Positions 44,132-55,451 of a DNA stretch of 64,000 nt are shown here, in pieces. Every line of letters starts with the position of its first letter. Within the stretch, counting starts at the first letter, position 1. A model generated the notes under the pieces. The model searched no databases. It worked only from the letters and a program-made list of their open reading frames with translations, and was not told the DNA's origin. The DNA comes from Acidimicrobiia bacterium. Its GTDB lineage: Bacteria; Actinomycetota; Acidimicrobiia; Spongiisociales; UBA11373. The position numbers and the translations under genes were made by a program. The DNA lies in assembly GCA_030584185.1 (NCBI GenBank), contig CP129495.1:1977469-2041468 (forward strand), given 5' to 3'.

Positions 44132-45274
44132 ATGCGCCGCAACCCCGTTCTCGACCGTCTCGGTGAGTACCCGATCGCCGAGCTGCAGAGCCTGGCCCGC
44201 AGCATGCGTGCCGCCGGGGAACGGCTCATCGACTTCTCGATAGGCGACCCCAGGGAGCCCACCCCCGAGTTCATTCGGGAGGCGTTGCGCCGGGCGGTTC
44301 CCGAGGCGTCGCAGTACCCGACCGTGGCCGGACTGCCCGAACTGCGCCATGCGGTCTCCGCCTATCTGCGGCGCAGGTTCGGAGTGGATGTCGATCCAGA
44401 GACCCAGGTGGTCCCGGTGTCCGGGGCCAAGGAGGCGATCTTCTCCACCCCGCTCGCCTTCATCGATCGCGCCGCCGGGGAGGCGGGTGCCTTCGCCACC
44501 CCGGGGTACCCGATCCACGAGAGGGGGCTGGTGTTCGCCGGCGCCGATACGGTCGCCATCAGGCTCGCCGGGGACTTCGTGCTGCGGTCCGAGGACGTCC
44601 CTGCCGCCTCCTGGGAACGCCTGCGTCTGCTGTGGACCTGCTCGCCGCACAACCCGACCGGGGCGGTGGCCGCTCTGGAGGATCTCGCCGACCTCTACGG
44701 GGCATGCCGGAAGCACGACACCCTGTTGCTGAGCGACGAGCCCTACACCGACATCTACGAGGGAGAGCCACCCCATTCGGCTCTCGAGGTCGCCGGCCCG
44801 GGTTCGCCCGGTGTCCTCGCCTACCTGTCGTGCTCGAAGCGGTCTGGCATGACCGGGTACCGGTGCGGCGCCGTGGTGGGAGATCCCGAGGCGATAGCCG
44901 CCCTCAAGGCCCTGCGCTCGTCGGTCGGGGTGGCACCGCCCGAGTTCGTCCAGGCGGCCGCCGCCGTGGCCTGGGCCGACGACGACCACGTGGCGGAGCG
45001 CCGCGCCGTCTTCGCCGCCAAGCGAAGGGTGCTGAGAGATCGGCTCGAGCTCGCCGGGATCCGGGTGGCCGGCGCGTCGGCAGGGCTGTACCTGTGGGTC
45101 GAGGTCGAGGACGACACCGCAGCGGCCAAGCGGCTGCTCGCCGAGGGCGTGGTGGTGTCGCCGGGAAGGGTGTTCGGCCCTGGCGGGGAGGGGCACCTGC
45201 GCCTCGCCCTGGTGCCGACCCTGGACGAGTGTGCCGAGGCGGCAGAAGTGGTGGCGAGATGCCTGCAAGCCTGA
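44132..45274 (+). CDS. dapC: N-succinyldiaminopimelate aminotransferase
   Basis: 380 residues, class I/II aminotransferase: FSIGDPREPTPEFI, SQYPTVAGLPELRHAVSAYL, TCSPHNPTGAV, LSDEPYTDIYEG, PLP Lys in SCSKRSGMTGYRCGA, and Arg near the C-terminus in LRLALVPT. The overlap with dapD (16 bases) and the following dapE assign it to the succinylase branch of lysine/diaminopimelate synthesis. Confidence 0.9.
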   Translation: MRRNPVLDRLGEYPIAELQSLARSMRAAGERLIDFSIGDPREPTPEFIREALRRAVPEASQYPTVAGLPELRHAVSAYLRRRFGVDVDPETQVVPVSGAKEAIFSTPLAFIDRAAGEAGAFATPGYPIHERGLVFAGADTVAIRLAGDFVLRSEDVPAASWERLRLLWTCSPHNPTGAVAALEDLADLYGACRKHDTLLLSDEPYTDIYEGEPPHSALEVAGPGSPGVLAYLSCSKRSGMTGYRCGAVVGDPEAIAALKALRSSVGVAPPEFVQAAAAVAWADDDHVAERRAVFAAKRRVLRDRLELAGIRVAGASAGLYLWVEVEDDTAAAKRLLAEGVVVSPGRVFGPGGEGHLRLALVPTLDECAEAAEVVARCLQA

Positions 45275-46062
45275 TCGACGCCGTCTACGAAGACCTGAGC
45301 CGCATCGAGGAGGCCCGTGAGGCGGTGCTGGAGACGATAGACGCCCTCGACCGGGGTGAGATCCGGGTGGCGGAGAAGCGGGACGGGGAATGGGTGGTCA
45401 ACGAGTGGGTGAAGCGGGCGATCCTGCTCTACTTCCGCCTCGCCGGGATGGAGACCTGGCGGGCCGGTCCGCTGGAGTTCCATGACAAGATCCCTCCCAA
45501 GACGGGGCTCGAGGCAGCCGGGGTGCGGGTGGTTCCCCCTGGGACGGTGCGCCGCGGGGCCTTCTGCGAGCCCGGTGTGGTGGTGATGCCGGGGTACGTG
45601 AACATCGGGGCGCGCGTGGGGTCGGGAACCATGGTCGACACCTGGGCCACGGTCGGATCCTGCGCCCAGATCGGCCGGGACGTGCACCTCTCCGGCGGTG
45701 TCGGGATCGGCGGGGTGCTGGAGCCGCCATCGGCCCGTCCGGTGATCGTCGAGGACGGGGCCTTCATCGGGAGCCGCTCCATAGTGGTCGAGGGGGTGAT
45801 CGTCGAGGAGGGCGCGGTCCTGGGGGCCAACACCACGATCACATCGTCGACCCCGATCATCGACGTCACCGGTTCGGAGCCGGTGGAGCACCGGGGGAGG
45901 GTCCCCGCCAACTCGGTGGTCATCCCCGGCACCCGTCCCCGGGAGTTCCCGGCCGGCACCTTTCAGACCCAGTGCGCCCTGATCGTCGGCAAGCGGTCCG
46001 AGTCGACCGATCGCAAGACCACGCTGGAGGCTGCCCTCCGGGACTTCGGGGTCCAGGCGTGA
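45259..46062 (+). CDS. dapD: Tetrahydrodipicolinate N-succinyltransferase (short, proteobacterial type)
   Basis: 267 residues. Left-handed beta-helix hexapeptide enzyme: NEWVKRAILLYFRLAGME, PGYVNIGARVGSGTMVDTWA, TVGSCAQIGRDVHLSGGVG, GGVLEPPSARPVIVEDGAFI, GSRSIVVEGVIVEEGAVLG. It succinylates tetrahydrodipicolinate. It resembles the E. coli-type enzyme (about 274 residues) and not the longer mycobacterial DapD. Confidence 0.94.
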   Translation: MPASLIDAVYEDLSRIEEAREAVLETIDALDRGEIRVAEKRDGEWVVNEWVKRAILLYFRLAGMETWRAGPLEFHDKIPPKTGLEAAGVRVVPPGTVRRGAFCEPGVVVMPGYVNIGARVGSGTMVDTWATVGSCAQIGRDVHLSGGVGIGGVLEPPSARPVIVEDGAFIGSRSIVVEGVIVEEGAVLGANTTITSSTPIIDVTGSEPVEHRGRVPANSVVIPGTRPREFPAGTFQTQCALIVGKRSESTDRKTTLEAALRDFGVQA

Positions 46063-47090
46063 CCCTGGCGGGCGACCTGGCCTGGCTGGTCGACATCCCT
46101 TCACCCACGGGCAACGAGGAGGCCCTCAGAGACGCCCTGGGGGAGCGGCTCGCGGGACGCTCGCCCCGGATGGTGGGGAGCTCCCTGGTGGCGGGAAGGC
46201 GCACCGACAAGCCCCTGATAGTCCTGTACGGGCATCTCGACACCGTTCCCGAACAGGGCAACCTGCCCGCCCGGGTGGAGGGGGGGCGGGTCCACGGCCT
46301 GGGCGCCTCGGACATGAAGGCTGGCCTGGCGGTGATGGTGGCCCTGCTCGAGGATGCGGCTGTCGAGGCGGGCCCCCACGATCTGATGGCGGTGTTCTAC
46401 GACGGTGAGGAGGGCCCCTATGAGGGCAACGGCCTCGAGGCGGTCCTCGATGCGGTCCCCGAGTTGGGCGAGGCGGCCTTGTCGATCGTCATGGAGCCCA
46501 CCGACGGGGAGCTGCAGCTCGGATGTCAGGGGACCATGAACGCCCGGGTGGAGTTTGGCGGCACCGCCGCCCACAGTGCCCGGCCCTGGCTGGGGGTGAA
46601 CGCCATCACGCGGGCGGGGAGGTGGCTGGCGGAGATGGACGGGATCGGCTGGCACGACGTCGAGGTGGCCGGGCTCGTGTTCAAGGAGACCTTCGCCGTG
46701 ACCACCGCTACAGGCGGGATCGCCCGCAACGTGATCCCGGCATCGTTCGAGGTGACGGTGAACCATCGTTTCCCTCCCGACAGGACGCCGGCCGAGGCGG
46801 AGGCGCGGCTACGGGAGATCTGCAGTGCCGCCGACCGGGTCGAGATACTCGACTACGCGCCTGCCGCCCCGATCCCTTCCGGCAACCCCCACCTGGAACG
46901 CCTTCGGGACCTGGTCGGGATCGTGACCGCCAAGACCGCCTGGACCGACGTTGCCCGCCTGGCGGCGCGGGGCTTGGACGCGGTCAACTACGGGCCAGGT
47001 GAGGTGGCACTGGCGCACCGCGCGGACGAGAGCGCTTCCATGGCTGCCATGGAGCGGTGCCTGGCGGTGATGCGGGAGTTCCTGGGGTAG
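46059..47090 (+). CDS. dapE: Succinyl-diaminopimelate desuccinylase
   Basis: 343 residues from GTG 46059, overlapping dapD by 4 bases. M20 peptidase fold: LYGHLDTVPEQGN, GLGASDMKAGLAVMVALL, FYDGEEGPYEGNGLEA with the catalytic Glu pair, MEPTDGELQLGCQGTMNA, and AHSARPWLG in the dimerisation domain. Releases LL-diaminopimelate for peptidoglycan and lysine. The actinobacterial DapE subclass is likely. Confidence 0.93.
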   Translation: MTLAGDLAWLVDIPSPTGNEEALRDALGERLAGRSPRMVGSSLVAGRRTDKPLIVLYGHLDTVPEQGNLPARVEGGRVHGLGASDMKAGLAVMVALLEDAAVEAGPHDLMAVFYDGEEGPYEGNGLEAVLDAVPELGEAALSIVMEPTDGELQLGCQGTMNARVEFGGTAAHSARPWLGVNAITRAGRWLAEMDGIGWHDVEVAGLVFKETFAVTTATGGIARNVIPASFEVTVNHRFPPDRTPAEAEARLREICSAADRVEILDYAPAAPIPSGNPHLERLRDLVGIVTAKTAWTDVARLAARGLDAVNYGPGEVALAHRADESASMAAMERCLAVMREFLG

Positions 47091-47250
47091 GGGTGGGGCC
47101 GAAGGGGGCAAGGGAGCGAGACACGCGCACGCAGGGTTGCCCCCCTCCCGGCTTCGCCGTACTCGCCCCTGCGGGGGTAGGAAATGCGGTGGCCGGTGGG
47201 TCGGGGGGCATGGAGGCGACTGAGGCTGCAACCGATCGCTCCGGCATCGA
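47091..47250. other. Intergenic stretch after dapE with repeat copy
   Basis: No gene seen. It holds GGGGGCAA (47104-47111) facing TTGCCCCC (47137-47144), a possible long-loop hairpin, and an inverted partial copy of the multi-hairpin repeat at 47131-47181. Confidence 0.6.
47131..47181 (-). repeat. Multi-hairpin repeat, partial inverted copy
   Basis: On the minus strand it reads CCCCGCAGGGGCGAGTACGGC then GAAGCCGGGAGGGGGGCA, matching the first half of the pair of repeats at 51574 and 51769 with a few substitutions and a 2-base insertion. Confidence 0.75.
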
Positions 47251-47251
47251 C

Positions 47252-47449
47252 CTACCTGGCGCCCTCCTCGAGCCGTCGGGCCTCGGCTTCGGTGTGCTCC
47301 TGCTTGCGGCGCGTCTCGGCTTCCTCGGACTCCGCCAGGCGCCGCTTCTCGGCCTCGAGGCTCTCCTCGCGCTGCAGCCGTTCGGCTTCCATGCCGGCTT
47401 GTCGACGGTCGGCGTCTTGTGACGCGTCGTCGGTGTGGGCGGTCGTCAT
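47252..47449 (-). CDS. Possible small Glu/Arg-rich coiled-coil protein
   Basis: 65 residues from ATG 47449: MTTAHTDDASQDADRRQAGM, then a continuous heptad-like stretch rich in Glu, Arg and Ala (EAERLQREESLEAEKRRLAE and on). No hydrophobic core for a globular fold and no ribosome site. Frame-wide coding bias is plausible, but low-complexity composition could produce it by chance. Function unknown. Confidence 0.4.
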   Translation of the reverse strand: MTTAHTDDASQDADRRQAGMEAERLQREESLEAEKRRLAESEEAETRRKQEHTEAEARRLEEGAR

Positions 47450-47659
47450 GTACCGAGGGTAGGTGTGGCGTCTGCCGTCGGTGGCGGGTTGCGCCCCGCA
47501 ATCGGATCGGTTGCAGGTGAGGGCATTGGAGAGAAGGTGTCGGCCGCGGTCGCGGGTTCGTTCCCGCCGGCCACCAACAGGTGGTGCGGGACACACTCGT
47601 TTCGGCTTGGTCCCGACTCCGACCTGAAGCGTCTCGCCCTGGCCGCCACCTGCGGTCGG
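47450..47659. other. Intergenic stretch upstream of gatC
   Basis: 210 bases with no supported gene. A small perfect stem TTGCG-CCC-CGCAA lies near 47499-47511. Together with 47091-47449 it makes an unusually long gap for this window. Confidence 0.5.
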
Positions 47660-47665
47660 TACCAT
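47660..47665 (+). promoter_or_regulatory. -10 element for gatCAB
   Basis: TACCAT, 7 nt before ATG 47673; core nearly identical to that at 36660. Confidence 0.45.
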
Positions 47666-47672
47666 CCCTGCC

Positions 47673-47960
47673 ATGCCCGTCGAGATCGACATCGCCAAGG
47701 TGGCCCGCCTCGCCCGGATCGGGTTGAGCCCCGACGACCTGGCCCATCACAGCGAGCAGCTGCAGGTGATCCTGGAGCACGCCGCCCGGGTGCAGGCGCT
47801 TCCCACCGAGGGCGTGGAGCCCACGGCGCATCCGCTCCCGATGGTGAACGCCCTCCGGAGCGACGAGGTCGAGCCGACCCTCGACCGGGACGAGGTGCTC
47901 TCCCAGGCGCCCGACCGGGAGGGGCCCTACTTCCGGGTCCCGCCGTTCCTGGAGGACTGA
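47673..47960 (+). CDS. gatC: Asp/Glu-tRNA amidotransferase subunit C
   Basis: 95 residues. IDIAKVARLARIGLSPDD and the C-terminal YFRVPPFLED are typical GatC. Stabilises GatA and GatB in the complex that converts Glu-tRNA(Gln) and Asp-tRNA(Asn) to the amidated forms. Abuts gatA with no gap. Confidence 0.94.
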   Translation: MPVEIDIAKVARLARIGLSPDDLAHHSEQLQVILEHAARVQALPTEGVEPTAHPLPMVNALRSDEVEPTLDRDEVLSQAPDREGPYFRVPPFLED

Positions 47961-49436
47961 GTGGACCCGGCCGACCTGACCATCGCCGAGGCCGGCACCC
48001 GGTTGCGAGCGGGTGACCTGACGTCCGCCGACCTTCTCCATGCCGTTCGCAGGCGCGCCTCGATGACCGAGGCGGTGCTGCACGCCTACCTGAACATCGA
48101 TCACGACGGGGCGGCCGCAGCGGCGGCAGCGGCCGACGAGGCGCTGCGACGGGGTGACGATCGGGGGCCCCTGCACGGCATCCCCGTCGCCCTCAAGGAC
48201 AACATGGTGACCCGGGGTCTGGAGACCACCTGCTCCTCCCGTATCCTCGCCGGGTATCGCCCTCCCTACGACGCCACGGTCGTAGAGAGGCTCCGGGCCG
48301 CCGGGGCGGTCGTGTTCGGCAAGACCAACCTCGATGAGTTCGCCATGGGGTCCTCGACCGAGAACTCGGCGTACGGGCCGACACGCAACCCTTGGGATCC
48401 GGACCGCGTTCCCGGTGGCTCCAGCGGCGGATCGGCTGCGGCTGTGGCCGTCGGCTCGGCGTTCGCCGCACTCGGGTCGGACACCGGCGGTTCGATCCGG
48501 CAGCCGGCGGCTCTCACCGGCACCGTGGGGATGAAACCCACCTACGGCCTGGTCAGCCGGTACGGACTGATCGCCTTCGCCTCGTCGCTCGACCAGATCG
48601 GTCCGATCACGCGCAGCGTCGACGACAGCGTCACGATGCTCGCCGCCATCGCCGGGCATGACCCGTCGGATGCCACCTCCTACCGGGGCGGATACCCGGA
48701 CTTCGCCTCGTCGATGGGTGATGGCGTCGCCGGCCTGCGCATCGGTGTCATCCGGGAGCTGTCCGGCGAGGGGATCGCCGCCGACGTGTCGGCCGCCTTC
48801 CGGGCGACGGTCGACGCCCTGGTGGCCGCCGGGGCCGAGGTGAGCGAGGTGTCGCTCCCCTCCACCGAGTACGCCCTCAGCGCCTACTACCTGATCGCCC
48901 CCGCAGAGTGCTCCGCCAACCTGGCGCGATTCGACGGGGTGAGGTACGGGCCCCGGCTTCCCGGATCCTCCGTGGAGGAGATGATGGCCGCCACCAGGGC
49001 GGACGGCTTCGGCCCCGAGGTCACCCGTCGCATCCTGCTCGGGACCTACGCACTCAGCGCCGGGTACTACGACGCCTTCTACGGGCAGGCCCAGAAGGTC
49101 CGCACGCTGGTGGTCGAGGACTTCCGCCGCGCCTACGCGGAGGTGGACGTCCTGGTCACCCCCACCAGTCCGACCACGGCGTTCGCCTTGGGGGAGCGGG
49201 CCGACGACCCGCTGGCCATGTACCTGAGCGACATCTGCACGATTCCGAGCAACCTGGCAGGTGATCCGGCGATCTCGCTGCCGTGCGGGCTCGACTCGGC
49301 GGGGCTGCCCATCGGGTTCCAGGTGTTGGCGCCCGCCCTGGGGGAGCCGGTCATGTTCCGCGTGGCCAAGGCGGTCGAGGAACTGGTCGGCTTCTCCGCT
49401 CGGCCAGCCCTGGCCTCCTCGGAGGGGGCGGCATGA
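47961..49436 (+). CDS. gatA: Asp/Glu-tRNA amidotransferase subunit A
   Basis: 491 residues from GTG 47961. Amidase triad: Lys in [26 protein letters not shown], nucleophile region [13 protein letters not shown], then [14 protein letters not shown] and [10 protein letters not shown]. Releases ammonia from glutamine (or asparagine) for GatB. Distinguished from the 12546 amidase by the GatA-specific MKPTYG block and gatCAB context. Confidence 0.96.
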
Positions 49437-50875
49437 CCTGGGAGGCGGTCATCGGGATCGAGACCCACGTCGAGCTGCTCACCCGTTCCAAGATGTTCTG
49501 CGGATGCCCGGCCGACTTCGGCGCCGAGCCCAACACCAACGTGTGTCCGGTCTGCCTCGGGCTCCCCGGTGCCCTCCCTGTCCCCAACGCCGCTGCCATC
49601 GAGTGGACCGCCTCCCTCGGCCTGGCCCTCGAGTGCGAGATCTCGCCTCGTTCGGTGTTCCATCGCAAGAACTACTTCTACGCCGATCTGCCGAAGAACT
49701 ACCAGATCAGCCAGTTCGACCTGCCTCTTTGCATCGGGGGGAGGCTGGAGGTAGACGGGGGGTCCGGGCCGCGAGTGATCGGCATCACCCGGGTGCATCT
49801 CGAAGAGGACACCGGCAAGTCCACCCACACCGGTGCCGGCGGTCGCATCCATGACGCCGAGGGGGCGCTCATCGACTTCAACCGGGCAGGCATCCCACTG
49901 GTGGAGGTGGTCACAGAACCCGACCTGCGCACCCCCGAGGAGGCCCGGGCCTACGGCCAGGCCCTGCGGGCGATCGTGCTCGCTCTCGGCATCTCCGACG
50001 CCCGTCTCGAGGAGGGGTCGATGCGCTTCGATGCCAACGTGTCGCTGCGACGCCCCGGCGCCGACACGCTGGGGGTCAAGGTCGAGGTGAAGAACATGAA
50101 CTCGCTGCGCTCGCTGCAGAGGGCGCTGGCACATGAGATCGCCCGACAGACTGCTTTGCTCGATGCCGGCGAGGTGGTGGCTCAGGAGACCAGGCACTGG
50201 GACGAGGAGGCGGGCCGCACCTCGTCGGGCCGCTCCAAGGAGGAGTCGAGCGACTACCGGTACTTCCAGGAGCCCGATCTGGTGCCCATCGAGATCGATG
50301 CCTCCGAAGTCGCCCGACTGCGCCATGCCCTTCCCGAGCTCCCCGGTGACCAGCAGGGTCGCCTGGTCGAAGCGGGTGTAGACGAGATTGCGGCGAGGAC
50401 GATCGTCGCCGGTGGGCTCGTCGGGTTGCTCGATGCCGCCGTGACAGCCGGGGCGTCGGCGCGCGGTGCCGCCAACTGGCTGGCGGGAGAGGTCACCGCC
50501 CACCTCAACCGGACCGGTGAGGACCCCTCCACGCTGCCTTTGGACGGTTCCGGCCTCGCCGAGTTGGTGGCGATGGTGGAGGGCGGCGAGCTGTCCGCCA
50601 CCGCCGCCAAGGAAGTGCTGAGCGGGGTGCTCGCCGGAGAAGGTGGCCCCCGGTCGGTTGCCGCCGATCGCGACCTGCTCCAGGTGAGCGACGAGGTTTC
50701 GTTGGCCGCCATCGTCGCCGAAATCCTGGCCGACCATCCCGACGAGGCGGCACGCCTCGCTGCCGGGGAGGAGCGGCTCGTCGGATTCCTCGTCGGGCAG
50801 GCGATGCGGCGCAGCGGGGGCCGCGCCGACCCGAAGGTGGTCGACCGCCTCATCCGGGAGAAGACGGGCAGGTGA
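49433..50875 (+). CDS. gatB: Asp/Glu-tRNA amidotransferase subunit B
   Basis: 480 residues. [20 protein letters not shown], four zinc-type Cys (FCGC, VCPVC), [54 protein letters not shown] and a C-terminal YqeY-like tail that contacts tRNA. Overlaps gatA by 4 bases. Presence of the complex predicts that GlnRS and/or AsnRS are absent. Confidence 0.96.
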
Positions 50876-51513
50876 CTCTCCCGGGCGGGGTGGTCTTCGA
50901 CTGCGACGGCGTCCTCGTCGACTCCGAGCCGCACTCGGTCGCAGCCTGGCTCGCCGTCTTGCGGCACCTCGGCCATCCCGCCGGCGCCGCCCAGGTGGAG
51001 CGCTGTACCGGCCTCGGGTTCATACCGACGCGTCGGGCGTTGACCGATCTGGGTCCCCTCCCGCCGCCGGAGGAGTTGTGGCCTGCGCTGCTCGCCGCCC
51101 TCGAGGAGTCGTTCCGGCATCGCCTGGTGGTGTTCGACGACGCCCTGGGCGTGCTCGCAGCCTGCGAGCGATCAGGGGTGCCGGTGGCGGTGGCATCGGC
51201 CAGCCCCCGTGAGCGTCTCGACCTGACACTTGCGGTGGCGGGGCTGAGCGGCCGGTTCCCGGTGTCGGTCGGCGGCGACGAGGTGCCCGAAGGCAAGCCG
51301 GCGCCTGACGTCTACCTGCGCGCTGCCACCCTTCTCGCTGTCGACCCGGAACGATGCGTCGCCGTCGAGGACTCCCCGACGGGGGCGGCTGCAGCGGTGG
51401 CTGCCGGGATGCGGGTCCTTGGCGTGGCGCGGCGGCCGGGCGAGGCGGCGGCGCTGCAACTGGTCGGGGCCGAGGTGGTGGATCGGCTGGACCCGGCGGC
51501 GCTGGGGCTGTAG
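50872..51513 (+). CDS. HAD-superfamily phosphatase (beta-phosphoglucomutase-like)
   Basis: 213 residues from GTG 50872, overlapping gatB by 4 bases. Motif I FDCDGVLVDSEP, motif II VASASPRERL, motif III with GKPAPDVYL, motif IV VEDSPTGAAAA. A cap domain lies between motifs I and II. Sub-family I as in beta-phosphoglucomutase and phosphoglycolate phosphatase; substrate unclear. Confidence 0.88.
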   Translation: MTLPGGVVFDCDGVLVDSEPHSVAAWLAVLRHLGHPAGAAQVERCTGLGFIPTRRALTDLGPLPPPEELWPALLAALEESFRHRLVVFDDALGVLAACERSGVPVAVASASPRERLDLTLAVAGLSGRFPVSVGGDEVPEGKPAPDVYLRAATLLAVDPERCVAVEDSPTGAAAAVAAGMRVLGVARRPGEAAALQLVGAEVVDRLDPAALGL

Positions 51514-51573
51514 GGCGAGGTTCCCTCGCACCCGTTGACGGAGCACCCCGTCGGGCGGAGGGGGGTGGTCCAC

Positions 51574-51688
51574 TCCTCCCCCTGCAGGGGAGTACGGCGA
51601 AGCCGGGTGGGGGGGGCAGACCCTTACAGACCATTGTCGCCTGTTGCCCCCTCCGGCCCTGCGGGCCACCTCCCCCGTCGGGGGAGGG
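51574..51688 (+). repeat. Multi-hairpin repeat, copy A (about 115 bp)
   Basis: Contains the palindrome CCCCTGCAGGGG, the stem CGGC-GAA-GCCG, GGCCC-TGC-GGGCC and CTCCCCC-GTC-GGGGGAG in a row. It differs from copy B by three substitutions and one G in a G-run. Frames through it show no coding bias. Confidence 0.85.
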
Positions 51689-51768
51689 AACGTCGGCGTC
51701 GGCCCTGTGGGCCTCCGCGCTCTTCCCCGAGCAGGGGTGATACCGCGAAGTGCGATCAGCCCGGTCAT

Positions 51769-51883
51769 TCCTCCCCCTGCAGGGGAGTACGGCGAAGCCG
51801 GGTGGGGGGGCAGACCCTGACAGACCTTTGTCGCCTGTTGCCCCCTCCGGCCCTTCGGGCCACCTCCCCCGTCGGGGGAGGGG
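51769..51883 (+). repeat. Multi-hairpin repeat, copy B (about 115 bp)
   Basis: Direct repeat of copy A, 195 bases downstream. The GGCCC-TTC-GGGCC stem differs from copy A only in the loop. It ends just upstream of the SDR gene. The 51514-51929 gap otherwise holds nothing I can name. Confidence 0.85.
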
Positions 51884-51916
51884 AGGCTCCTCGCCGATGC
51901 CGATCGACCGCCCGGA

Positions 51917-51922
51917 TACCAT
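51917..51922 (+). promoter_or_regulatory. -10 element for the SDR gene
   Basis: TACCAT, 7 nt before GTG 51930; supports that start over ATG 51897. Confidence 0.4.
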
Positions 51923-51929
51923 TCCGCCC

Positions 51930-52922
51930 GTGCACTACTTCGTCACCGGAGCCACAGGGTTCGTCGGCGGGTATGTGACCGCCCAGTTGCTCGAGGGCTC
52001 CCACCGGGTGACGGCCTTGGTCGCCGACCGGGAGCAGGCCCGCGAGATCGCTGCCTACGGGGTCGAGCCCCACGTCGGCTCGGTGGTGGACAAGGAGAGC
52101 CTGCGTCCTGCGATCCGACACGTGGAGGGCGTGTTCCACCTCGCCGGACATCGGATCGGGTTCGGCCGCCGTTCCACCGCCGAGGCGGTCAACCTCACCG
52201 GCACCCGCTCCGTGGTGGACCTGGTCCGCGAGCACCGGATACCCCGCCTCGTGGTCACATCCACTCTGGGGATCAACTCGGACACCAGGGGCAAGGTCGT
52301 CGACGAGTCGTACCGGTTCACCGGGAAGCATCTCACCGCCCATGACCGGATCAAGGCGAGGGTGTATCGCGAAGTGCTGCAGCCCGCCATGAGCGGGGGA
52401 GTTCCCCTGGTGGTGCTGCTGCCGGGGGCGGTGTACGGCCCCCGCGACACCAGCCTGATGGCCGACGTCCTGGCTCGCTACCTGGTGGGGCGCGCCTGGT
52501 TCGTCTCGGCCCGGTCCGCCTTCTGCTGGGCGCACGTGGAGGATGTCGCCCAGGCTCACCTGCTGGCGATGCAGTTCGGGCGGGTCGGTGAGTCCTACAT
52601 CGTCGGCGGCGAGCCACGCCGGGTACGCGAGGTCCTGGCCCTGGCCGGAAGCCTGGTGGGCCGCCGGACGCCCCCGATCCCGCTGCCGGCGCCCGTCGTA
52701 TGGCCTGCGGCCGGGGCGGTTCGCCTCGCCTCCGTCTTGATCCCCTGGCTCCGTCCCACCGCCGACCGGCTGCGGGTCGCCACCGGCGTGACCTACCTCG
52801 GAACGGACGCCAAGGCGCGCTCCGAGCTCGGGTTCGCGCCGAGGACCCTCGAAGACGGCCTTCCCGACGCCGTCGAGTGGCTGCTCCGTGACCGTTTCGA
52901 GGCCGAGCCGGCCTCCTGGTAG
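51930..52922 (+). CDS. NAD(P)-dependent epimerase/dehydratase-like (extended SDR)
   Basis: 330 residues from GTG 51930. Nucleotide-binding TGATGFVGGYV at the N-terminus, VFHLAGHR, LVVTSTLG, LLPGAVYGPRD and WAHVEDVAQAHLLA are extended-SDR landmarks. The catalytic Tyr of YxxxK appears to be His138 (AHDRIK), so activity is uncertain. An alternative start ATG 51897 has GGAGG 10 nt upstream and would add 11 residues. Followed by pepN 12 bases later. Confidence 0.8.
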   Translation: MHYFVTGATGFVGGYVTAQLLEGSHRVTALVADREQAREIAAYGVEPHVGSVVDKESLRPAIRHVEGVFHLAGHRIGFGRRSTAEAVNLTGTRSVVDLVREHRIPRLVVTSTLGINSDTRGKVVDESYRFTGKHLTAHDRIKARVYREVLQPAMSGGVPLVVLLPGAVYGPRDTSLMADVLARYLVGRAWFVSARSAFCWAHVEDVAQAHLLAMQFGRVGESYIVGGEPRRVREVLALAGSLVGRRTPPIPLPAPVVWPAAGAVRLASVLIPWLRPTADRLRVATGVTYLGTDAKARSELGFAPRTLEDGLPDAVEWLLRDRFEAEPASW

Positions 52923-52934
52923 AAAGCTCGAACC

Positions 52935-55451
52935 ATGACCACATCAAGAGACCGTCTCGGCCGCGACGAGGCCGCCCGGCGCGCCGAGCAGGTGTCCGGA
53001 GTCCAGTACACCCTGCACATCGATCTCGCCGCCGGCGAGAAGGAGTTCGGCGGCGAGGCCACGATTCAGTTCGACCACTCCGGCGGGGACACCTTCCTGG
53101 AGTGGATGGGCGGGCGCATCGAGTCGTTCGAGGTGAACGGGGCCGAGTCGGACCCGGAGTGGGACGGCCACCGGATCTCCCTTCCCGCCTCCATCCTCGG
53201 GTCGCACAACCGGATCCGTGTCTCCTACCGGCGCCCCTACGACCGGACCGGTGAGGGGCTGCACCACTTCATCGATCCCGAGGACGGACGGGAGTACCTC
53301 TACACCCAGTTGGAGCCGTACTCCGCCCATCGCATCTTCCCCTGCTTCGACCAACCCGACCTCAAGGCCACCTACGACCTGACGGTGACCGCCCCCTCCA
53401 CCTGGGAGGTGACCGGTCCCTCGTCGGAGGTGGAGCGTGAGGATGTCGGAGAAGGGCGTGAACGGCGGCGGTTCGCCACCACCAAACCCTTCAGCACCTA
53501 CCTGATGTCGATCGTCGCCGGAGAGTACGGGTCGATCTCCGCCGGCCAGGCACCGGTGCCGATGCGGCTCCTCACCCGTGCATCTCTCATGCCACACCTG
53601 GAGCGAGACGCCGCGTCGCTGTTCGACACCACCACGCGTGCGATGGAGTACTTCGCCGGTCTGTTCGGCGAGCCTTATCCCTTCGACAAGTACGACCAGG
53701 CGTTCGTCCCCGAGTTCAACTGGGGGGGCATGGAGAACGTGGGCAACGTCACCTACACCGACACCGTGGTGTTCCGTGAGCCGCCCACCGCCGATCGGGT
53801 GCGGCGTCGGGCGGAGTACTTCACCCACGAGCTCGCCCACATGTGGTTCGGGGACCTGGTGACCATGCGCTGGTGGGAGGACATCTGGCTCAACGAGTCG
53901 TTCGCCTCATACGCCGGCTACCTGGCACTCGAAGCGCTGGGCGACCACGAGGTGTGGCAGGACTTCAACTTCCGCATGAAGGCATGGGCGTACCGGGAGG
54001 ATCAGCGCCCCACGACCCATCGCATCGCCGATTCGGTGGCCTCGACCGACGAGGTGTTCCTCAACTTCGACGGCATCACCTACGGCAAGGGGGCTGCGGT
54101 CCTGAAGCAGCTGGTGCGCGCCAGCGGGATCGAAGGCTTTTCGGCGGGCCTGCACACCTACTTTCGCCGTCACCGCTTCGGCAACGCCAACCTCGCCGAC
54201 TTCCTGGCGGCACTGCAGGAGGGCAGCGGCCTCGATCTCGTGGGCTGGGCGGCGCGCTGGCTGAAGACTCCCTCACTCAACACGATCGGGACCACCCTCA
54301 CCTCGACCGGTGACACCATCACCCGCCTCGAACTGATGCAGTCGGCGCCCGACGACCATCCCCACCTGCGGCCGCACCACCTGGACATCGCCCTGGTGTC
54401 GGCATCGGGCGCCGTCACTGCGGTGCCGGGCGTGATCGAGGGGGTCACCGCAGTCGTGCCCGAGGCCGAAGGCCTTCCGGTCCCCGCCTTCGTGTACCCC
54501 AACCTGGGCGACCACGCCTTCGCCAAGGTCGTCCTCGACCCGGGCTCGCTCGAGTTCGTGACGCACGACATGGGCCGGCTCGACGACGCCCTGCTGCGCC
54601 AGCAGGTGTGGGCGTCCCTGTACGAGATGACCCGTGACGCCATCCTTCCCGCTCCCCGATACATGGGCCTCGTGGAGCGCCTCCTCCCGGATGAGCGGTC
54701 GCTCCCGATCGTGGAGATGGTTACGGCAACCCTGCCGACGGTGATCGGCCGCTTCCTCCCCGAGGATGGGATCGAGGAGGCGGCGAGCAGGTTCGTCGCC
54801 ACGGCGCGCGCCGCCGTGGAGTCGGTACCCGAGGGCGACGCCCGCGTGCTGTGGGCGAGGACGCTGGTCGCTGTCGCCGCCTCGGCGCCCGACCTGGTGG
54901 TTGCCGCCGCCCTGGTCGACGCTCCTCCTGAGGGGCTGCTGGTGGATCAGGACATGCGGTGGTCGGTGGCGGTCAAGGCGATCGCCTTCGGCGTCGAGGG
55001 CGCCGACGCCAGGCTCGCCGGAGAACGGGAACGCGACCCGTCAGACCGGGGCGATCGAGCCATGGCCTCAGCCGGATCCTCGCGCCCCGAAGCCGGGGCC
55101 AAGCAGGAGGCGTGGGACCGCATCCACGGCGACGGTCACGGGTCGCTCGCCATGCGCCGCGCCGCCGCCTCCGGGTTCTGGCGCCGCTCCCAGGCGGCGC
55201 TGGTCGAGCCATTCGTCTCGCCGTTCTTCGACGACCTTCCGGATCGGTTCGTCGAGTACGAGGCGGAGGAGGCGAAGGCCTACTTCGCCACCTTCTTCCC
55301 CCGGCACCGCGTCGACGAGGAGCTGAGAGGAAGGATCGCCGCCCTTCTTGCCGGGGCCGAGATCGGGCCCATGCTGCGCCGCATGCTCGTCGAGGAGGAC
55401 GACGACCTCGCCCGAGCACTGCGATGTCGCGCCGCCGCGGCGTCGGAATGA
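52935..55451 (+). CDS. pepN: Aminopeptidase N (M1 family)
   Basis: 838 residues. Substrate-binding GGMENVGNVTYTD (usual GAMEN, here GGMEN), zinc site HELAHMWFGDLV with the second ligand in WLNESFASYAGY 18 residues later, catalytic Tyr in NFDGITYGKGAAVL, and the ERAP1-like C-terminal helical domain. Trims N-terminal residues from peptides. The length is normal for actinobacterial PepN. It overlaps the next gene by 4 bases. Confidence 0.94.
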   Translation: MTTSRDRLGRDEAARRAEQVSGVQYTLHIDLAAGEKEFGGEATIQFDHSGGDTFLEWMGGRIESFEVNGAESDPEWDGHRISLPASILGSHNRIRVSYRRPYDRTGEGLHHFIDPEDGREYLYTQLEPYSAHRIFPCFDQPDLKATYDLTVTAPSTWEVTGPSSEVEREDVGEGRERRRFATTKPFSTYLMSIVAGEYGSISAGQAPVPMRLLTRASLMPHLERDAASLFDTTTRAMEYFAGLFGEPYPFDKYDQAFVPEFNWGGMENVGNVTYTDTVVFREPPTADRVRRRAEYFTHELAHMWFGDLVTMRWWEDIWLNESFASYAGYLALEALGDHEVWQDFNFRMKAWAYREDQRPTTHRIADSVASTDEVFLNFDGITYGKGAAVLKQLVRASGIEGFSAGLHTYFRRHRFGNANLADFLAALQEGSGLDLVGWAARWLKTPSLNTIGTTLTSTGDTITRLELMQSAPDDHPHLRPHHLDIALVSASGAVTAVPGVIEGVTAVVPEAEGLPVPAFVYPNLGDHAFAKVVLDPGSLEFVTHDMGRLDDALLRQQVWASLYEMTRDAILPAPRYMGLVERLLPDERSLPIVEMVTATLPTVIGRFLPEDGIEEAASRFVATARAAVESVPEGDARVLWARTLVAVAASAPDLVVAAALVDAPPEGLLVDQDMRWSVAVKAIAFGVEGADARLAGERERDPSDRGDRAMASAGSSRPEAGAKQEAWDRIHGDGHGSLAMRRAAASGFWRRSQAALVEPFVSPFFDDLPDRFVEYEAEEAKAYFATFFPRHRVDEELRGRIAALLAGAEIGPMLRRMLVEEDDDLARALRCRAAAASE

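Follow-up and report, generated by a model that had tools for sequence, protein, structure and literature searches.

A dispersed two-hairpin repeat with a mirror-image third arm in an Acidimicrobiia genome: a candidate class II purine-motif triplex element

Introduction

What kind of element is a 115-bp non-coding segment that occurs twice at close range, almost unchanged, with one of its few differences confined to a hairpin loop? Such a pair lies in the window analysed here, a stretch of 64,000 nucleotides from an Acidimicrobiia genome (completeness 96.5%) whose source contig is a single sequence of 2,211,559 bases (2.21 Mb). An earlier note on this DNA read the loop change as a sign of selection for structure or of a recently mobile non-coding element, and suggested counting further copies, folding the transcript and looking for an associated RAYT transposase.

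Intrastrand DNA triplexes have to be considered as well. In the purine motif, the third strand runs antiparallel to the purine strand of the duplex and forms G·G-C, A·A-T or T·A-T triads, and the BoxC/PIT/TMECO repeats of E. coli and other bacteria are described as class II intrastrand triplex motifs (PMC4666352). Based on the copies collected from the whole contig, we consider it probable that the repeats form a REP-like intergenic DNA family, the unit of which would encode a putative class II (5'-Y-R-R-3') purine-motif intrastrand triplex.

Results and Discussion

Anatomy of the duplicated element

Read directly from the sequence, the duplication is real: the copies occupy 51574-51688 and 51769-51882, with starts 195 bases apart, and differ by three substitutions (TTACAG/TGACAG, CCATT/CCTTT and CCCTGCGGG/CCCTTCGGG) and by one G in a G-run, as the note had it. 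A repeat search aligns them at 96% over 79 nt and at 98% over 45 nt, and the 20-mer that the note singled out occurs twice in the window with up to three mismatches (0.02 occurrences expected from shuffles). The pair stands between the gene of a HAD-family hydrolase (50872-51513, plus strand, Pfam PF13419) and that of an NAD-dependent epimerase/dehydratase (SDR; 51897-52922, plus strand, Pfam PF01370).

Two different units of 46 nt, termed L and R, make up each full copy as an inverted pair, and its four palindromes are hairpins 1 and 2 of L followed by hairpins 2 and 1 of R on the opposite strand. In copy 1, the L-type unit (51574-51618, plus strand, from sequence reading and profile search) consists of hairpin 1 (CTCCCC at 51576-51581, GGGGAG at 51587-51592), hairpin 2 (CGGC-GAA-GCCG, 51595-51605) and a third arm, GTGGGG, from 51607. 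After a 26-nt spacer (51619-51644) comes the R-type unit (51645-51690, minus strand), which reads CCTCCCCC-GAC-GGGGGAGG in hairpin 1, GGCCC-GCA-GGGCC in hairpin 2 and GGAGGGGG in the third arm (plus-strand coordinates 51647-51654), with 8/8 base triples. Copy 2 repeats this arrangement, with an L-type unit at 51768-51810 (plus strand; hairpin 1 arms at 51771-51776 and 51782-51787) and an R-type unit at 51839-51884 (minus strand), again with 8/8 base triples; on the unit strand, its hairpin 2 loop is GAA in place of GCA (TTC versus TGC on the plus strand), and the stem is intact in both copies. Both L units of the pair have arms of just 6 nt and a T for A in arm 3, and fall outside the 46-nt frame used below. 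The third, inverted copy placed at 47131 does exist, not as a whole element but as a solitary, imperfect L-type unit (47140-47183, minus strand, 6/8 hairpin 1 pairs), about 50 bp past the stop of an M20-family peptidase gene.

Distribution and unit design in the genome

The pair is no simple local duplication, since the 115-mer used as a BLAST query matches 72 segments of the contig at E<=10, and 56 segments remain at E<=1e-3. In the stretches fetched around these matches, a profile search identified 63 units in 29 clusters. All 29 clusters are intergenic (17 between co-directional, 8 between convergent and 4 between divergent genes), as judged with a simple codon-usage gene caller (by which the window is 89.5% coding) and with four BLAST-only sites, near 812, 1252, 1388 and 1803 kb, left out of the count.

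The units share one design: hairpin 1 (8 bp, with the pyrimidine arm 5' and the purine arm 3' in both L and R), a joint of one or two bases, hairpin 2 (4-5 bp) and a third purine arm. Hairpin 2 forms the 14-nt linker between arms 2 and 3, TGGCCCGAAGGGCC or TACGGCGAAGCCGG, and the ungapped 46-nt consensus is TTCCCTCCCCCGNAGGGGGAGGTGGCCCGAAGGGCCGGAGGGGGCA for R and TTCCTCCCCCCGCAGGGGGGAGTACGGCGAAGCCGGGAGGGGGGCA for L. This frame holds 43 of the 63 units (38 distinct); entry required at least 6/8 hairpin 1 pairs and ignored arm 3, hence hairpin 1 pairing is partly built into the set. In most of the other 20, a shortened hairpin 1 accounts for the loss of frame, and many copies thus appear decayed.

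Opposite-strand neighbours up to 150 bp apart always join an L to an R (21/21), both where they face inward (14/14, with gaps of 26-31 or 51-54 bases) and where they face outward (7/7). R units also occur in tandem runs with gaps of 24-27 bases (one pair, at 3, excepted) and a period of about 65-71 bp. One unit, at 1228289, is an L in this neighbour list and an R in the replichore count given below. The largest array comprises nine units (1238094-1238802 of the contig) and is flanked by convergent genes encoding a LigD-type primase-polymerase domain and an ATP-dependent DNA ligase domain, possibly end-joining repair genes.

The third arm mirrors the purine arm of hairpin 1

In both unit types, arm 3 is the mirror image, and not the complement, of the hairpin 1 purine arm (GGAGGGGG mirrors GGGGGAGG in R; GAGGGGGG mirrors GGGGGGAG in L). 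An antiparallel third strand restricted to the triads given above must mirror arm 2, and the three-arm layout is, in its sequence, the one predicted for a class II purine-motif intrastrand triplex. Across the 43 in-frame units, 40 of the 42 A positions in arm 2 face A or T of the mirrored arm 3, and none of the 42 does so when arm 3 is set in parallel register; for distinct units, the counts are 35 of 37 and 0. In the reverse direction (distinct units), 35 of 47 A or T positions of arm 3 lie opposite A in arm 2, and the other 12 lie opposite G.

When arms are exchanged between unit types, the agreement is lost: L arm 2 with R arm 3 matches in 68/442 cases and R arm 2 with L arm 3 in 1/425, compared with 272/289 and 602/650 within types (unit 855159 being counted as L). 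Between L and R, C-G·G gives way to T-A·A at one triple, with the opposite exchange at the next (columns 5/21/38 and 6/20/39), and the paired changes extend over columns 5-21 and 6-20 of hairpin 1 and 25-35, 26-34 and 27-33 of hairpin 2. In the 38 distinct units, 93.7% of the cells of hairpins 1 and 2 are paired and hairpin covariation is 0.414, against 0.165 in shuffles (0/200 as high), although this control overstates the number of independent events, the L/R contrast within the genome being largely one divergence; in a hand-picked set of 22 of these units, two of five covariation measures were not above shuffles (298 and 497 of 500).

Coordinated change of this kind is the evidence that settled RNA structures. 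Taken as a reading of sequences, the three-arm evolutionary evidence for a triplex is unusually direct. A mirror relation is also hard to derive from copying errors: we infer that it is the product neither of slippage, which gives direct copies, nor of hairpin-templated correction, which gives inverted ones. It is extremely unlikely that the relation is a chance or low-complexity artefact in which G-rich arms mirror-match trivially, for although the arms are mostly G and their A/T positions alone are informative, the tests counted A positions alone or took every other placement of the same letters as the comparison.

The G-rich runs might instead suggest a G-quadruplex assembled from arms 2 and 3, with the C arm incidental, and G-rich triplex motifs are indeed reported to be able to switch to quadruplexes (PMC8044849, PMC4666352). 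We regard this reading as very improbable, because nothing in a quadruplex calls for a pyrimidine arm that is complementary or for an interrupting A at its mirror position, because the C arm covaries with arm 2 as well as arm 3, and because the NMR spectrum reported for E. coli TMECO favoured triplex over quadruplex (PMC4666352).

Loops, replication strand and folding as RNA

Triloops of the GNA type cap hairpin 1 in 38 and hairpin 2 in 40 of the 43 in-frame units; the corresponding count for five-bp triloop hairpins in the rest of the window is 8 of 169. The TGC/TTC change between the window copies falls at the N of GNA, and thus the loop-only change fits a GNA-triloop rule. In other genomes, GNA occurs in 143 of 182 distinct triloop linkers, covering 57 stem sequences (the scanned core, whose pattern fixes GNA, was excluded for that reason); 36 linkers have other loop lengths, and 82 of 300 have no 4-bp hairpin. 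GNA and GNNA loops are described as giving extraordinarily stable DNA mini-hairpins, with GCGAAGC melting at 78 C (PMC4686876), and GCGAAGC is present within the L unit.

In this genome, the strand of the R units tends to follow the replichore. With dnaA at 1,357,899 and a GC skew that stays below zero between 220 and 1336 kb and lies above it over most of the remaining contig (a sampled stretch at 1870 kb is negative), the plus strand carries R in 16 of 18 clusters of the left replichore and in 3 of 11 of the right (p 0.0013), a bias that was examined post hoc, after the strand list was at hand. Merging BLAST sites within 1 kb gives 18/19 versus 4/12 (p 0.0005), and thinning the sites to 5, 20 and 50 kb gives p values of 0.003, 0.006 and 0.04; the cluster count includes a contrary cluster at 300406 that falls below the E-value cut of the BLAST-site count. 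In the loci of named genomes, a cruder test by 8-kb GC skew detected no bias (57/103 agree, p 0.32), and 20 stretches from four relatives gave no clear pattern of orientation with replichore.

Could the repeats act as transcribed hairpins, that is, as a terminator, mRNA stabiliser or attenuator? When the transcript is folded, as the note proposed, whole copies do fold strongly as RNA (z -3.36 and -2.89); single units have ordinary z values (-0.14 to -1.49) in base-pair folding, a model that cannot score triplexes and leaves the third arm out of reach. The share of clusters between convergent genes (8/29, against 3/18 window gaps of at least 60 bp) would also suit an RNA element. Nevertheless, we judge this explanation distinctly unlikely: RNA is reported not to support purine-motif triplexes (PMC4666352), the loops are the DNA-stable GNA triloops, and an Rfam search of 45000-54000 at E<=1 returned no relevant match (one unrelated match, below the gathering score). 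Additionally, R lies on the plus strand in all 8 co-directional clusters of the left replichore, 5 with minus-strand and 3 with plus-strand genes, so its strand does not track transcription there. The mirror third arm, which the earlier note overlooked, itself points to single-stranded DNA, rather than the transcript, as the probable place of folding.

Comparison with mobile repeats

The repeats could also be ordinary REP/BIME or MITE-type elements, with hairpins recognised by a trans-acting transposase and a purine third arm that is incidental. Their dispersed, intergenic distribution, the inverted pairs and the tandem R arrays are all in keeping with this, and so is the way in which their presence varies by genus at the junction of the HAD and SDR genes. 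The suggested RAYT association was not supported: Y1_Tnp (PF01797) has no match in this genome even at E<=1, and a search at E<=1e-3 that added 39 relatives was empty as well, although 12 of the relatives match the element by BLAST (a control search found matches in 10 and 5 of 14 named genomes). We rejected a RAYT-associated REP on these empty searches. Pfam places none of 20 proteins encoded at or near clusters (11 of the 29 covered) in a transposase family (two are without a Pfam family), and the flanks of the 63 units, inspected by eye, have no conserved GTAG tag. The covarying mirror arm is, furthermore, not predicted by a transposase-borne element, and we consider the latter rather unlikely. 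A CGTC tag was also considered and rejected, with CGTCATTCC before one L unit and CGTCTTTCC before another at 920 kb but no general tag. As for MITE-type terminal inverted repeats, L and R are inverted and homologous, yet unlike at several positions.

The GTAG- and CGTC-tagged REPs and HH dimers described in PMC3733652 are likewise short palindromic units in inverted dimers, and the CGTC REPs are said there to lack a dedicated transposase, like the repeats studied here. The units of this genome differ from that description in having no conserved GTAG or CGTC tag, and two hairpins plus a third arm per unit.

The gene order GatB-HAD-SDR is kept in six relatives (G001, G002, G003, G005, G008 and G010). 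Inspected by eye, the HAD-SDR junction is free of such a unit in five of them and holds a different unit of similar general design in G001; a profile search at the relatives' HAD-SDR spots found no unit in any. The content of the junction thus changes between genera. The spot after the HAD gene also carries different units of similar design in G009 and G012, whose stretches end before the SDR gene; these triplex-type units in three genera (G001, G009 and G012) suggest that it may be a recurrent landing place. Of the note's two options, conserved structure and a dispersed non-coding repeat are both borne out, while recent mobility is not.

Proposed fold and relation to known triplex motifs

In the triplex reading that we favour, arm 1 would pair with arm 2 to form a hairpin, and arm 3, tethered by the GNA-capped mini-hairpin 2, would fold back antiparallel into the groove of hairpin 1, with G·G-C and A·A-T or T·A-T as putative triads. 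The fold would be transient, arising in single-stranded DNA during replication or repair, and this DNA fold, rather than an RNA, would be the target of selection or of a copying process. Our guess is that the repeats are non-autonomous and that they spread and decay via replication-linked copying and slippage. What they do for the host or for themselves can likewise be put only as inference, a fork or transcription barrier and plasticity being our guesses for a host benefit.

The units have much in common with BoxC/PIT/TMECO as described in PMC4666352: a 5' pyrimidine arm, a purine arm and a reverse-Hoogsteen purine arm, A or T opposite A, an intergenic position, no associated transposase, and inverted hetero-pairs (types A and B in each of the five TMECO pairs, L and R here). 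They do not match the consensus given in that paper, CCCTCNCCC-N3-6-GGGNGAGGG-N3-GGGNGAGGG; their purine arms are GGGGGAGG or GGGGGGAG instead of GGGNGAGGG, their loop 2 is a 14-nt GNA-capped hairpin instead of the 3 nt of TMECO, and the lineages in which they were found here are Actinomycetota and Alphaproteobacteria. The loop 2 limits reported there are 1-6 nt for ITxF and 0-10 nt for Hoyne, so these searches, as described, would miss units with a 14-nt loop 2; limits of 6 or 10 nt would pass over hairpin-bearing elements. The recurrent repeats of Methanomicrobiaceae (PMC8044849), which form a hairpin, antiparallel triplex or quadruplex in vitro, are also intergenic and G-rich with a C-rich arm, but they are archaeal, with a 3' C arm (class I order) and a central loop of 3-5 nt. 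Among the open-licence PMC papers listed by literature searches (subscription papers being outside this scope), we recognised no description of hairpin-capped triplex repeats or of three-arm covariation.

Work on E. coli TMECO is reported to have obtained a stable triplex in vitro but, inside cells, no protection from DMS (PMC4666352). It has long been asked if intrastrand DNA triplexes have any importance beyond the test tube, and the repeats offer a good natural test of this, with tens of units per genome being enough for a comparative survey.

Other lineages

With one genome taken per species, a scan for the R core (29 fixed bases of 30) gave at least 120 matches; those listed are mostly from Caulobacter, together with Phenylobacterium, Reyranella, Rhizobiales and other Alphaproteobacteria, and single MAGs of Actinomycetota, Acidimicrobiaceae and Deltaproteobacteria. 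Named Caulobacter and Phenylobacterium strains among the matches listed would provide laboratory systems. The exact R core also matches 21 viral-contig stretches (L219-L239, from IMG/VR contigs), several of which carry other triplex-type repeat families as well; these contigs may be prophages or mis-assigned host DNA.

Since the R-core scans fix both arms, the mirror relation was counted in other arm types. A mirror arm 3 lies within 34 nt in 68 of 108 hairpins, compared with 16/90 for a same-orientation copy and a mean of 4.4/108 for other placements. These hairpins were chosen blind to arm 3, dropping the scanned arm type, loci fetched by the mirror or control pattern of the phylum scan (L240-L279), purine arms lacking A or containing fewer than 5 G, stems of fewer than 8 perfect pairs and hairpins 40 bases or less from a stretch end; with L240-L279 kept, the counts are 77/118 for mirror and 17/95 for direct copies. 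Arm types seen at least twice are mostly mirror-matched in 9 of 13 cases, and singletons in 4 of 10. Within one hairpin 2 family of Caulobacter-type loci, each of three arm sets has its own mirror match (GGGGGAGG..GGAGGGGG in nine cases, plus one with T for A; GGGAGAGG..GGAGAGGG in four; GGGGGAAG..GAAGGGGG in one) and one case is unmatched. In a group of 17 hairpins from viral contigs, GGGGGAAGA, the test for a 9-nt mirror was negative, although most of those listed show an 8-nt mirror with T. Among the relatives, G005, G020 and G033 have L/R-like pairs of their own, and G020 has, twice, a further hetero-pair of GGGGAAG..GATGGGG with GGGAGGG..GGGTGGG.

It is quite possible, though slightly less likely than not, that hairpin-capped class II triplex repeats constitute a broad, so far unrecognised class of bacterial interspersed repeats, present in Actinomycetota and Alphaproteobacteria, in which the coordinated changes of the three arms reflect a triplex maintained by evolution in single-stranded DNA at replication forks. 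If so, the replichore strand bias of this genome would be a trace of such folding.

In a scan of the phylum, the mirror pattern was found in 9 of 396 genomes and its same-orientation control in 10 of 396 (this genome in both), so that the two differ in copy number only and not in genome number: this genome has 27 mirror and 2 control matches and G041 has 19 and 0, while G005 is high in both (37 and 40) because its arms satisfy both patterns. The 19 class II-type matches of G041, a 1.6-Mb genome of the same phylum, have an AT-rich, hairpin-free linker, CTCCCCCTTTAAGGGGGAGGAATAAAAGGAGGGGG (for example at L245, L251 and L255), and are, by their sequence, a different putative triplex family.
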